Shown in pieces: positions 3,832 to 8,038 of a DNA stretch of 64,000 nucleotides; positions within the stretch are counted from its first letter, which is position 1, and every line of letters starts with the position of its first letter. This DNA is from Isoetes taiwanensis (Eukaryota > Streptophyta > Lycopodiopsida > Isoetales > Isoetaceae): contig JAJEKV010000054.1 of assembly GCA_021234155.1 (NCBI GenBank), positions 1,550,001 through 1,614,000 on the forward strand, given 5' to 3'. Made by a program: the position numbers and the translations under genes. The notes under the pieces are model-generated. The model ran no database searches. It saw only the letters and a list, made by a program, of their open reading frames with translations, and was not told the origin of the DNA.

Positions 3832-3982
3832 TTGGAATTGGGAAGCGCCAGGATCAAGGAAGCAGCTAACCCTTTGTTCATTGTCCAGCAGAATACAAAT
3901 AGACGAGTTCCTTGAAGTTAGGAACAACTACTAAATGATTACAGTAAAATCTCATCAGTCATCTTTTTGTCATGTTCCAACA
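3832..3982 (-). repeat. 3' LTR of the gene-capturing element (shortened)
   Basis: This copy matches the right LTR from GAATTGGGAAGC to CATGTTCCAACA with a handful of substitutions. It lacks about 19 bases present in the other copy (around TACTTTTAACGGCTACTA, at short repeats of ATC) and about 6 bases near its outer end. No target-site duplication can be recognised on this side. Confidence 0.85.
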
Positions 3983-4779
3983 CTCCCCCTCAAGAAGATG
4001 ACTACTGGCCTCAAGAAAATAACTATTACAAGAAGCTGAAACACAAAACTAAACTTTTTGAATTTGCCCACCGAATTTTGGAGATTTTCTATGAAAGGAC
4101 TTTGTGAGGCACTCCCCTAAACGAACTTCACTTCTATGTCTGCCTACATAAATGTTGAACAGGTTCTTTGAGAAAGCATGATGCACCAAGCTTAGTTTAT
4201 ACCAACTCTCCCCCTGCATCATGAAAGAACTCAAGCACTCCCCCTCAGCCAATTCAAATTGAACTTCCCCTTGCATAATTTTGCATAATGAAGCAGAAAA
4301 AGTCTGTCATGCAGCCACCATGAGCATGAAGAAAATAAACTGTGGCACTTTCCCTTGCTTCATGAAGGAGAACTTCTGTTTATCATGAGTTTTCCAATGC
4401 GCATGCCAATTCCTAAGTGGTTTCAACCAAATTGCTTCAATGTGCTGCCCCAAATGCAGTTATGTGCTGCTCCATTTTCTAGTTACCATACTTTCAACTT
4501 TAAAGATTGCCATCACGGTTAACATACCTTGTTGGTTTCGCTCAGCATTAGATACACCTCTCACAATCTTAAGCCTACGGTCAAGGATCCTCTCTCCTCT
4601 ACTTCATGATGCATGATACTGCTGTCTACTTGGCGACTTGTTGTCTTGACTTAGCATATAGGACTCATGTTGCCATTTTCTCCCCCTTGCATCCTGAAGT
4701 ATAACACGAACGACATCTTCACCTACTTGCGTTCTTCTGGACTGTAAAAGCCAGTATTATGTTTCCAACGTCCTTTGCT
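3983..4779 (-). other. Noncoding 3' region of the element with repeated purine tracts
   Basis: In the element's own direction this stretch contains several GGGGGAG-like tracts (+ strand about 3983, 4112, 4203, 4236, 4265 and 4681), the first being the polypurine tract at the LTR border. No domain is recognisable. A 75-codon open frame at 4049-4276 is probably chance. Confidence 0.5.
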
Positions 4780-4839
4780 ACAATCATTATGAGCTCTGCA
4801 ATGTGCCTCAATCTCTTTTGCTACTTTCTTGACCTGCTG

Positions 4840-5610
4840 CTAACACTTCCTGGTAGCTTCATCTTTCTTAGCAAGTTTTTGTTCTTCTATAAGCCTGATT
4901 TTTCGCATTCTTTGAACAAGACTAGTTCGAAACTCAATCAAGTATGTATTGGCCTCTGTGTCACCTTCCTTGCTTGAAAGTATTGCTCTTTGTCGGATCG
5001 TAAGTTCTGTTTTCTCTTTGATATTCTGCAAATCTTGCATGCTGCCTTTTTGGGTCGCTTGCTCATCTTTTGAACTAACTTCATCATCATCTTGAGCTGT
5101 AATGAAGTCTTCCTCTGAAGTGCTCTCATCAGTTTTGAAGGAATCTTGGTCATCAGACTTGTGCCTTTTCCTAGCTTTCTTCACTTCTTCAATGTCGTCA
5201 TGGTCATCCCCATCAAGATCATCATCAAAAACTTGTCTCTTAATTACCCCAGAGCTTTTCCTGATAGCTTGCCCAGCAGAAGAAGTTGGCACTGGTGATG
5301 CAGAACTAGCCTTCATCTCTACATTTGTTTTTGTTAATTCTAATGAAAGATTCAAAAGCTTCCGTGCCTTTTGGGCATCAGGGTTATGCTTTGACTTATC
5401 AGGCTCATGCTCATACTCATGCTCATACTGCTCTACATATAGCCTTATGGTTGCACCAGAAGAACCAATACCAGAAAGATGAAAAATAAGCCATGAGCCA
5501 TCACCAAAACCAAGCTGAATTCTTTGCTTCGAGGCCACACTTCCATCTACTGGATTAACATATTCAAAATCATCTGCACAGCTAAGAGTATATGTGACCA
5601 TGTTGATCAC
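4840..5610 (-). CDS. Chimeric open frame: phosphoglucomutase C-terminus fused to an INO80B/PAPA-1-like protein
   Basis: The frame has 256 codons. Residues about 11-94 match the C-terminal domain of plant phosphoglucomutase: [18 protein letters not shown], then [20 protein letters not shown], the phosphate-binding end that is usually R-LSGTGS-GATIR. Residues about 98-200 are acidic and low in complexity ([11 protein letters not shown]). Residues about 201-256 ([33 protein letters not shown]) match the PAPA-1-like conserved region of INO80 complex subunit B. The join is in frame. Past the stop, 4839-4780 continues QQVKKVAKEIEA in the same frame, as the INO80B family does, so that stop is probably a mutation. 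Whether the fusion is translated is unknown. The start codon lies one base shift away from the upstream phosphoglucomutase frame. Confidence 0.65.
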
Positions 5611-5838
5611 TAGGCTTAGATGTAGATATCAGATCGCGCAGGTGCTCAGCCATAGCATTGACCTTTGATGAATCACATTCCTCATAGTCATAGCATGAGA
5701 AAAAATTCCGCCCATATATGGCCCAATGTTCCTTTGCAATGTCTTCTACAGACACAAGCTTCTCCCCAGCTTCCTTCCATGGTTTCTTTCAGCAAGAATG
5801 GACAACCATGCCAGCACAGCCCAGATACCATCTTCCAG
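5329..5838 (-). pseudogene. Processed fragment of phosphoglucomutase (C-terminal third)
   Basis: The segment reads, across three frames, [14 protein letters not shown], then [17 protein letters not shown] and YDYEECDS, then the ADDFEY...SGATIR block. These are consecutive stretches of cytosolic plant phosphoglucomutase, which interconverts glucose-1- and glucose-6-phosphate. The full-length plant gene has many introns, and here about 170 codons run without any, so this is a cDNA-derived copy. Single-base frame breaks lie near 5760 and near 5590. The catalytic serine and metal-binding loops are in the missing N-terminal part. A short 'catgctcatact' duplication near 5410-5430 lengthens the acidic EHEYEHE stretch. 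Confidence 0.8.
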
Positions 5839-6969
5839 AAATTTTGCACGAGCACTTTTGCCAGAAACATCCACAATCTTCTTACATGCTTCAACATTTA
5901 CTACATCCATTCCAGTACTCAATTCTTTTTCTTCCTCAAAAATTATTGGCTCCTGTATTCCCTGCTCAATCTTTGGAACATCAATTTCATCATCATTAAA
6001 GTCTCCCTGAAGAATGAGTCTATGGCATCTTCTAGCAGGTAGTTGATCTACAGGGACATTCTTTTTACCAACATGCCAGTTTTGCAAGCCTTTTCCTCCT
6101 TTCGCTGGACTTCTTTCCATTTCTTCTTGATTAAAATCTTCAATTGAATCTCTAATGTGACGGTTTTGCAAGCCTTTTCCTCCTTTCTCTGGACTTCTTT
6201 CCATTTCTTCTTCATTAAGTTCTTCAATTGAATCTCTTGCATTAACAAGTGTCCCAAATTTGCCATCTTGTCTAGAACTTCTCTGCTGCAAATCAACCTT
6301 GTTGCTAGAAAGCTCTTCCTCAGAATCTAAGAAATCCCTCCTATAATTCCAACCCACAACAGGTCTACCCTTCTCCGCTGCATTGCTTTTTCCATCAATA
6401 ATCTCTGCAAAGCTTTTCTCCTTCAAGGGTGGATTATCTTTCACAGAACACCTGCCTTCCCTTCTCTTAAAACCGTTCTGAAATCTAGGTTCAGCATTGG
6501 CCTCTACTTTTCTTTCAGGAGGAAAAACATTATCAAATTCATCACTAACCTTAGAATGAGGATGCCAGCCCTTCACATTAGTTTGATTCCTGACCAATCC
6601 TCTTCTTTCATTTGATGAAGTAATCCTCTTTGCACTACTTGCATTACTAGAATTGCCTTCAGTGCTCCTCCTCATGGCAGTGTTCCCATTAGAAGTTTCA
6701 GCATCTATGTCTTTGCCACGGTTCAAAAAACATCTTGCTAGAATCAACTCCGTACACCAAACTCTCAGGTCAAGTGCCGGACGCTCATTCACATAACGGT
6801 GAAATGCAAACAGTTGGGTTGTAGCAACAACAATTCCAACATATCGCCACATAGCTCTATGGAGTCCAGGTATGTCTTTGTTCAGGACTGCTGCTGTAGA
6901 AAGATCGCACTGAATATATGACAAGAAGACAAACGTGCCCACACAGATGCCACAGATCAGGACAACCAA
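5746..6969 (-). CDS. Chimeric open frame: ABC transporter segment, unidentified acidic segment, phosphoglucomutase segment
   Basis: The frame has 407 codons. Residues 1-84 resemble the transmembrane domain of a half-size ABC transporter of subfamily D (ABCD2-like: [19 protein letters not shown], then [17 protein letters not shown] and LALDLRVW-like [19 protein letters not shown]). Residues 85-377 are hydrophilic, rich in Ser, Asn, Glu and Lys, and unidentified. Residues 378-407 begin with [16 protein letters not shown] of phosphoglucomutase and then run out of frame to a stop. A frame this long containing parts of two unrelated enzymes is best explained by fusion of several cDNAs. Translation is not demonstrated. 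Confidence 0.6.
5839..6717 (-). pseudogene. Unidentified hydrophilic segment with a 28-residue tandem repeat
   Basis: Residues 85-377 of the 407-codon frame show no domain I recognise. The segment is charged and probably disordered. Residues 245-272 and 273-300 are a tandem pair ([20 protein letters not shown] and [20 protein letters not shown], each followed by KGLQN). Its position between two captured gene pieces and its lack of introns suggest a third captured gene. Confidence 0.45.
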
Positions 6970-7130: not shown

Positions 7131-7132
7131 TG

Positions 7133-7750
7133 CTAAATGCTCTGGATCAGAATGAGGCTACGAGTACCCTCCAACCTTGGCCTTCTTGCAGCTTCAGACC
7201 TTGGCCTCCAGATTTGCTTTGCAAAATCCATCAACATTGATTGAGGTTCTCTTGTTAGAGCCATCACTGATATCTTTGCTTTAAGATCTTCTGATCTCAC
7301 ATCATCCCATAGATCACATAGATCCCTGTTGGGCTCGTTCACTGGCATTGCACTCTTGCAGGCTCGCGATCCACTACCAAAATCCATCAGCAACCTCTGT
7401 GGTTCGCTTGCTACTACCAGGTTCATCACTATGTCTTGGTTGGTTCCCATAGCCTGCCTTGCTACAAGCATCTTGAACCACCATGCCATATCCTCGGTGT
7501 CTCCTTGTGAGCACTCAATGCTCCACATCATGCACCTAAAAATGACATATCTCATCTTTGGCCATACGACCTCTCTTTTCAGCATCATAACCAAGTTTCT
7601 AGCAGCCTCTTTGAAGCTTGGTAAGCCCATCACAAGCCAGATCCTGTTAATGACACTGAATCTTTTCACCTCTTTTGCTTGGTGTAGCACATCCATGCCC
7701 ATGTAGCATAAGAGACTCACCAAGACATGCCAGAAATCCATTCTCGACAC
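7133..7750 (-). CDS. Unidentified 205-codon frame just inside the 5' LTR
   Basis: This is the first long frame after the primer-binding site, where gag would sit in an autonomous element. It has no CCHC knuckle and no gag motif. It contains two similar stretches, SEPQRLLMDFGSGSRA and REPQSMLMDFAKQIWRPR, about 45 residues apart. It is rich in Met, Trp and Arg. It could be a further captured gene piece, a degenerate gag, or a chance frame. Confidence 0.35.
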   Translation of the reverse strand: MSRMDFWHVLVSLLCYMGMDVLHQAKEVKRFSVINRIWLVMGLPSFKEAARNLVMMLKREVVWPKMRYVIFRCMMWSIECSQGDTEDMAWWFKMLVARQAMGTNQDIVMNLVVASEPQRLLMDFGSGSRACKSAMPVNEPNRDLCDLWDDVRSEDLKAKISVMALTREPQSMLMDFAKQIWRPRSEAARRPRLEGTRSLILIQSI

Positions 7751-7845
7751 GTTTTACGTTCCCAGATTGGATCCGTCATGAATCTACTCTCCCCTTATTC
7801 TTCAAACACACAAGAGCTCTTAGGCCTATTCCCTGGAACCAACCT

Positions 7846-7857
7846 GCTCTGATACCA
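7846..7857 (-). promoter_or_regulatory. Primer-binding site (initiator-Met tRNA) of the gene-capturing element
   Basis: On the minus strand this reads TGGTATCAGAGC, the standard plant iMet primer site, three bases (ATA) inside the 5' LTR. Confidence 0.85.
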
Positions 7858-7860
7858 TAT

Positions 7861-8038
7861 TGTGGAACGAGAATTGGGAAGCACCAGGATCAAGGAAGCA
7901 GCTAACTCTTTGTTCATTGTCCAGCAGAATACAAACAGACGAGTTCCTTGAAGTTAGGAACAACTACTAAATGATTACAGTAAAATCTCATCTACTTTTA
8001 ACGGCTACTATCAGTCATCTTTTTGTCATGTTCCAACA
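7861..8038 (-). repeat. 5' LTR of the gene-capturing element (178 bp)
   Basis: In element orientation the LTR begins TGTTGGAAC and ends GTTCCACA, giving imperfect terminal inverted repeats and the usual TG...CA ends. It is the longer of the two LTR copies. Transcription of the captured genes would start here, but no clear TATA box was chosen. Confidence 0.85.

Follow-up and report, generated by a model that had tools for sequence, protein, structure and literature searches.

Long terminal repeat (LTR) retrotransposons carrying pieces of host genes have been described in several flowering plants. Bs1 of maize is an LTR element in which segments of three host genes form a chimeric gene (PMC13317346). 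The soybean element GmaRetroS15, a gene-carrying terminal-repeat retrotransposon in miniature (TRIM), combines short LTRs with exon-only fragments from three genes (PMC4717578). A 2009 survey of maize found 425 intact LTR elements with host gene fragments, derived from at least 189 captures; the cited part of that survey reports, under its conditions, no individual LTR element that combines fragments from two or more standard nuclear genes (PMC2774510). Host gene fragments inside LTR pairs are also documented in a rice and sorghum survey (PMC3726574), and in Magnaporthe a long interspersed nuclear element (LINE) has produced tripartite chimeric retrogenes by double template jumps (PMC2104539). 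The locus described here lies in a 64,000-nucleotide stretch of the Isoetes taiwanensis genome (C1061:1550001-1614000, hereafter the window; the genome comprises 1,658,258,908 bases in 1110 contigs). On the minus strand, positions 3831-8038 are confirmed to be a non-autonomous LTR retrotransposon of approximately 4.2 kb. In all likelihood, it is a frameshifted copy from a non-autonomous LTR family whose subfamilies repeatedly acquire pieces of spliced host mRNA, in sense orientation and in frame, by template switching.

The identity of the phosphoglucomutase (PGM) segment within this element is certain. Two window frames match Pfam family PF24947 (expectation values, E, of 2.1e-20 and 2.9e-5), a PDB search gives E 8.4e-17 and 1.1e-9, and an NCBIfam scan returned weak PGM matches only. 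Residues 388-545 of rabbit PGM align to window positions 5835-5335 with no room for an intron, and the segment contains two frameshifts in the window copy. According to the cited account, the PGM genes of poplar have 18 or 22 exons (PMC10743687). In the Isoetes genome, a search in which all 23 candidates were scored returned 47 matching stretches, including split loci on C1030 and C1078 that have the same exon pattern; other PGM-like loci match partly. The donor at C1030:3827688-3828556 (L039) comprises six exons and five introns, all GT..AG. Its exons match the element at 87-98%, and the five introns are exactly absent from the element. Uninterrupted PGM sequence occurs at seven places including the window, two of which have common flanks.

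The ABC transporter segment is identified via its intron-containing donor, by which its identity is confirmed. The element's piece alone scores E 4.9e-4 (20 bits) against PF06472, which is under the cut-off, and a PDB search with it gave nothing useful; the donor exons match the same family (ABC_membrane_2) at E 8.8e-12, with 45.4 bits against a cut-off of 24.4. A genome search with all 12 candidates scored returned 14 matching stretches, with donors on C157 and C1097, three exons each. The three exons of C157:569148-570265 match the element at 82-88%, and the donor introns of approximately 69 and 674 bp are exactly absent from it. A third intron, which begins with GTAAGC after donor ...ATATTTTT, is probably missing as well, because the element continues for a few codons past that splice site. 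Because the donor introns are exactly absent, the PGM and ABC segments must be regarded as copies of spliced mRNA. An earlier sequence-only reading had proposed intronless pieces of both genes, and a search for the donor genes and their intron positions has borne this out. Intronless segments with intron-containing donors in the same genome, as in transducing elements of the Bs1 type, are thus found for PGM and ABC; DNA searches with the acidic and INO80B-like segments described below revealed no such combination.

The organization of the window copy, in the order of transcription, is as follows.

7858..8038, minus strand: 5' LTR, 181 bp, TGTTGGAAC...CCACAATA; boundary placed by means of the siblings' target duplications
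7846..7857, minus strand: primer binding site TGGTATCAGAGC; of the 15 sibling copies printed, 13 are identical to it at all 12 nt
7133..7753, minus strand: 206-codon frame, the 5' core of the family and not cargo, here frameshifted off the rest; at least 50 matching stretches in the genome (best 40 of 74 candidates scored)
6726..7101, minus strand: captured ABC transporter segment (ABC_membrane_2) that aligns to three exons of the donor and lacks the two introns between them
5836..6725, minus strand: acidic segment, both ends common to sister subfamilies, middle seen only in subfamily A
5345..5838, minus strand: captured PGM segment, covering parts of six exons of the donor without its five GT-AG introns
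4708..5334, minus strand: charged "INO80B-like" segment of unconfirmed identity, its first ~128 nt being backbone common to sisters
3992..4707, minus strand: non-coding 3' region, common to sisters, in which the purine-rich motif GGGGGAG recurs
3983..3991, minus strand: polypurine tract GAGGGGGAG, unchanged in 10 of the 11 sibling copies printed
3831..3982, minus strand: 3' LTR, damaged, with 20-bp and ~6-bp deletions and its outer end lost

Paired direct LTRs with a primer site and a polypurine tract just inside them define an LTR retrotransposon, and these features are present as the sequence-only reading described them. The full LTR ends in ...CCACAATA immediately 5' of TGGTATCAGAGC, which we take to be the usual initiator methionine tRNA (iMet) primer site. 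The LTR end was set at ATA because the 5-bp target duplications of the siblings begin right after it; an LTR ending in CA, followed by a 3-nt spacer before the primer site, was dropped on the same ground. Across the interior of the window copy run three long minus-strand frames of 206, 415 and 262 codons. The 415-codon frame exceeds the longest frame in each of 1000 dinucleotide shuffles of the interior (maximum 275), and 206 codons or more were reached by 13 of the 1000. No Pfam gag, protease, reverse transcriptase, RNase H or integrase was detected in the window frames scanned, in agreement with the earlier statement that retroviral enzymes are missing, and no Pfam gag-pol domain was found in the long frames of four siblings (L012, L014, L015 and L016). 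The gag-pol of an autonomous LTR retrotransposon is therefore not present in the frames scanned.

The 206-codon frame, which the sequence-only reading had listed at 205 codons as a separate component, is present and constitutes the core of the family. It was considered as a captured gene or a gag and rejected in both roles, having no Pfam or PDB match and proving to be the family core. No Pfam family matches this frame or the acidic segment up to E 10. Its structure model is poor (mean predicted local distance difference test score, pLDDT, 41.8), and it has no similarity to other elements in the window.

Further copies were sought with the 3' LTR and adjacent region as query. With the best 40 of 135 candidates scored, the search gave at least 46 matching stretches, and 30 stretches were retrieved for analysis. 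The order of segments seen in the window recurs in L009, L010, L011, L012 and L013 (subfamily A), at 87-98% over most segments. L012 and L013 lie on two contigs, have flanks that are 98-100% alike and the same partial 3' LTR, and are one insertion seen twice. This pair may reflect haplotypes kept apart or a segmental duplication. L011 is interrupted, and L038 on C1034 is a partial copy. In total, the same chimera is present at five insertion loci besides the window. C974 and C571 hold further partial relatives, and L018-L020 are LTR matches with at most a short piece of the core. In L012, a single natural frame of 947 codons runs through the core, ABC, acidic and PGM segments and part of the INO80B-like one, and Pfam PGM is found in it at E 3.6e-32. 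Because L012 reads as one frame, each insertion preserved the reading frame, and the division of the window copy into separate frames is later damage. By an arithmetic estimate, three in-frame joins would arise by chance alone in about 1 of 27 cases.

Sister subfamilies provide sites without these insertions. L014-L017 have LTRs approximately 77-80% identical to those of the window and common parts of the core, the acidic start and the 3' region, and they contain neither ABC nor PGM. At the ABC site, 41 nt separate the core from the acidic start in all four of them, whereas the window has 427. At the PGM site, L016, L023, L028 and L035 (the four printed) are continuous through GCTCGTGCAAAT(C)TTT..TTAGAATT, and the PGM piece of the window is bordered on both sides by approximately 8 nt of backbone (AATCTTTC-like), the left copy being imperfect. 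ABC and PGM entered one and the same backbone as separate insertions. An ancient host gene fusion with the same order of pieces was dismissed: the best donors lie on different contigs (C1030 and C1078 for PGM; C157 and C1097 for ABC), and the sisters lacking each insertion also contradict it.

The sisters carry other cargo. The natural frames of L014, L015 and L016 span 1,053, 1,049 and 1,156 codons, respectively. In L015 (sister B), residues ~569-816 (L015:2400-3144) resemble a plant subtilase (PDB 7eox, E 1.3e-41; cucumisin, E 2.6e-25), and Pfam PA is found in this subfamily at E 2.6e-7 (L015) and 3.7e-7 (L014). Sister C contains a piece of an IP5PC beta-propeller (E 5.4e-9 in L016, where it lies at L016:3345-3651, 9.3e-9 in L028 and 2e-11 in L035). 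Part of the B and C frames may resemble a 2OG-oxygenase. L024-L027, L030, L032, L033 and L037 have ends and core in common with sisters B and C, and their interiors differ. The multi-copy nature of the chimera and the sister subfamilies, whose frames of over 1,000 codons hold other cargo, had both escaped the sequence-only reading.

Regarding age and mobility, 5-bp target duplications are perfect in 10 of 14 siblings and missing in L011, L014, L022 and L032. The LTR pairs of seven of the 14 (L015, L016, L022, L024, L025, L026 and L027) differ by no substitution. The window pair shows 3 transitions over the well-aligned part, or 6 differences in 152 positions including the damaged end. The PGM codons of L012 differ from the donor by a nonsynonymous divergence (dN) of 0.064 and a synonymous divergence (dS) of 0.137. 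Since this dS exceeds the divergence of the window LTRs (about 0.02, rising to 0.04 when the damaged end is counted), the capture of PGM predates the window insertion.

Whether the fused frame matters to the element is a separate issue. The chimeric frame may be carried passively, with no product made or mattering and with the long open frames being young junk. We give this possibility nearly even chances, slightly on the lower side. In its favor, the frame is broken in the window copy and in most A copies, the dN and dS of the L012 PGM codons are near the values for one constrained plus one unconstrained lineage, the comparison of L014 and L015 (dN 0.027, dS 0.042, p 0.058) is not clearly below a ratio of one, and codons 1-150 of L015 and L016 show no constraint (p 0.83). 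On the other hand, the frames of L014, L015 and L016 remain open over 1,049-1,156 codons, and codons 151-600 of L015 and L016 have a synonymous excess (p 0.001); blocks beyond codon 600 were left out of this comparison, being partly unrelated sequence. In a neutral simulation, moreover, 600-codon frames stayed open in 0 of 2000 runs at 0.125 changes per site, in 3 at 0.10, in 67 at 0.05 and in 503 at 0.02. The copies used for the selection tests and for comparison with the simulation were chosen after being seen open. A more ambitious reading is rather doubtful: a modular gene-capturing element with a conserved core and in-frame spliced inserts, whose protein of approximately 1,000 codons would be made and selected, and whose cargo would be swapped among subfamilies (ABC and PGM; subtilase and others; IP5PC propeller) in continuing exon shuffling.

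Repeated capture by template switching, the reading preferred here, would proceed in a few steps. Enzymes provided in trans would be packaged together with the element RNA. While the minus DNA strand was being made, reverse transcriptase would move from this RNA to a host mRNA packaged alongside it and then return, so that each capture would involve two template switches, with one excursion and return for ABC and another for PGM. If the enzyme landed a little away from the point where it had left, the ~8-nt repeat bordering PGM would result. The fused product would then be mobile as a unit, and the window copy would have decayed afterwards. Template switching fits the data because splicing is exact, the pieces are in sense orientation, short, internal to their mRNAs and free of poly(A), their borders lie within the common backbone, and a short repeat is found at one border. 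Sense orientation is described as usual for transduced sequences in plants in the part of the literature cited (PMC7264820). The proposal of the sequence-only reading that several unrelated cDNAs were joined by template switching is partly supported: two unrelated spliced donors, sense orientation and sites that are nearly empty in the sisters fit this inferred mechanism. The support does not extend to the other segments, for which DNA searches revealed no intron-split donor.

Alternatively, the pieces could have been fused beforehand by another transposon (Helitron or Pack-type) or in a trans-spliced transcript, and the LTR element would have taken up the ready-made chimeric mRNA in one step. 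All pieces being sense and forming one frame in L012, as in a single processed transcript, would agree with this. However, ABC and PGM occupy separate sites approximately 0.9 kb apart, on a backbone that sisters possess without either of them, and one-step uptake would leave no common backbone between the two. No fused locus outside LTR elements is present among the matches listed for PGM (47) or ABC (14). In place of the terminal inverted repeats or Helitron ends and the retained introns of Pack-MULEs and Helitrons, the element has LTR ends, 5-bp duplications and intronless cargo, although no search was aimed at Helitron ends. This alternative is consequently improbable. Least probable of all is the entry of host gene fragments by DNA-level insertion or ectopic recombination: LTR elements do gain gene fragments, and DNA repair could also have left the ~8-nt repeat flanking PGM, but the loss of five introns from PGM and two from ABC is exact at GT..AG, and cDNA pasted in by break repair, though conceivable, also needs an RNA copy.

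Several observations weigh against repeated capture by template switching. DNA searches with the acidic segment (28 of 28 candidates scored, 30 stretches) and the INO80B-like segment (31 of 31 scored, 33 stretches) revealed no recognizable intron-split locus. The window copy has no target duplication, the outer end of its 3' LTR being damaged. The partial copy on C1034 and L010, in which part of the INO80B-like segment is gone, lack parts of the chimera. Subfamily A frames are mostly broken, with only L012 open beyond 900 codons and L010 reaching 548, and L011 is old, its LTRs differing at 19 of 162 positions. The selection tests are mixed. Capture of host mRNA in sisters B and C is suggested by protein similarity rather than by intron loss, and, at a threshold of E 0.01, the frames of L024, L026 and L030 match no Pfam family. 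Switching, packaging and transcription, like the source of the enzymes, are deduced from DNA and not from RNA. Finally, it is the donors, and not an outgroup tree, that indicate gain of the pieces instead of their deletion from the sisters.

The remaining segments are less readily assigned. The first ~146 nt (6705-6560) and the last ~70 nt of the acidic segment are common to the sister subfamilies, and its middle contains an in-frame tandem duplication of ~84 bp (6074-6153 and 6158-6237). Those matches of the acidic and INO80B-like segments that could be placed are element copies. The proposed INO80B/PAPA-1-like identity found no support: the PAPA-1 profile has no match up to E 10 in the window segment, also with one stop read through, nor in the sibling L012 to E 1, and three PDB-type checks of the piece were negative. 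A tblastn search against plasmids yielded chance-level matches only, and a search of viral contigs gave nothing useful. On C1045, a region of ~1 Mb (22.06-23.02 Mb) contains ten matches to the initial 119 nt of the INO80B-like segment. As in subfamily C, the acidic start lies ~1.1 kb from most of these, and the region holds either a tandem array or sister elements clustered locally.

Frames in the window flanks of the element have no Pfam match, and a non-element host locus there was dropped on this basis. A Copia element at 8082-13034, with 236-bp repeats that are 100% identical and the target duplication CCCAT, has inserted at a distance of ~40 bp from the 5' LTR's outer end. Elsewhere, the window contains a second LTR element at 28311-35295 (98% repeats, integrase domains and a gag-like frame), minus-strand LINE-type reverse transcriptase frames at 55475-57358, PPR protein frames at 14383-16380 (665 codons, E motif) and 62835-63539, and tandem repeats of ~111 bp at 41335-41808 and ~340 bp at 62857-63788.

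TRIMs are very short elements without a long frame. The 181-bp LTR of the element fits this class; its length of ~4.2 kb and the sibling frames of 947-1,156 codons do not. The gene-carrying TRIMs measure 1,172-1,449 bp in the cited part of their description (PMC4717578), and the element here also has the family core. As in Bs1, host gene segments within an LTR element form a chimeric gene; in contrast to Bs1 as described in the cited source, several subfamilies have a related backbone, their cargo differs and frames exceed 900 codons. In contrast to the elements covered by the cited portion of the maize survey, two donors are demonstrated in one element. The Magnaporthe retrogenes resemble the present case in that copies of different transcripts were fused during reverse transcription, but there, in the account cited, the machinery is that of a LINE, and no LTR element with a propagating fused frame is involved. 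The open-access papers found in literature searches include single multi-gene elements, and among them none is presented as one LTR family with different in-frame cargo in each subfamily.

Whether retrotransposons shuffle exons into new genes by habit or by accident is an old question for which few cases are available. In Isoetes taiwanensis, the donors, exact splice junctions, nearly empty sister sites, several cargo combinations and recent copies are all found in one genome. The order, rate and site of capture, as well as selection on the fused frame, are therefore measurable within a single genome.

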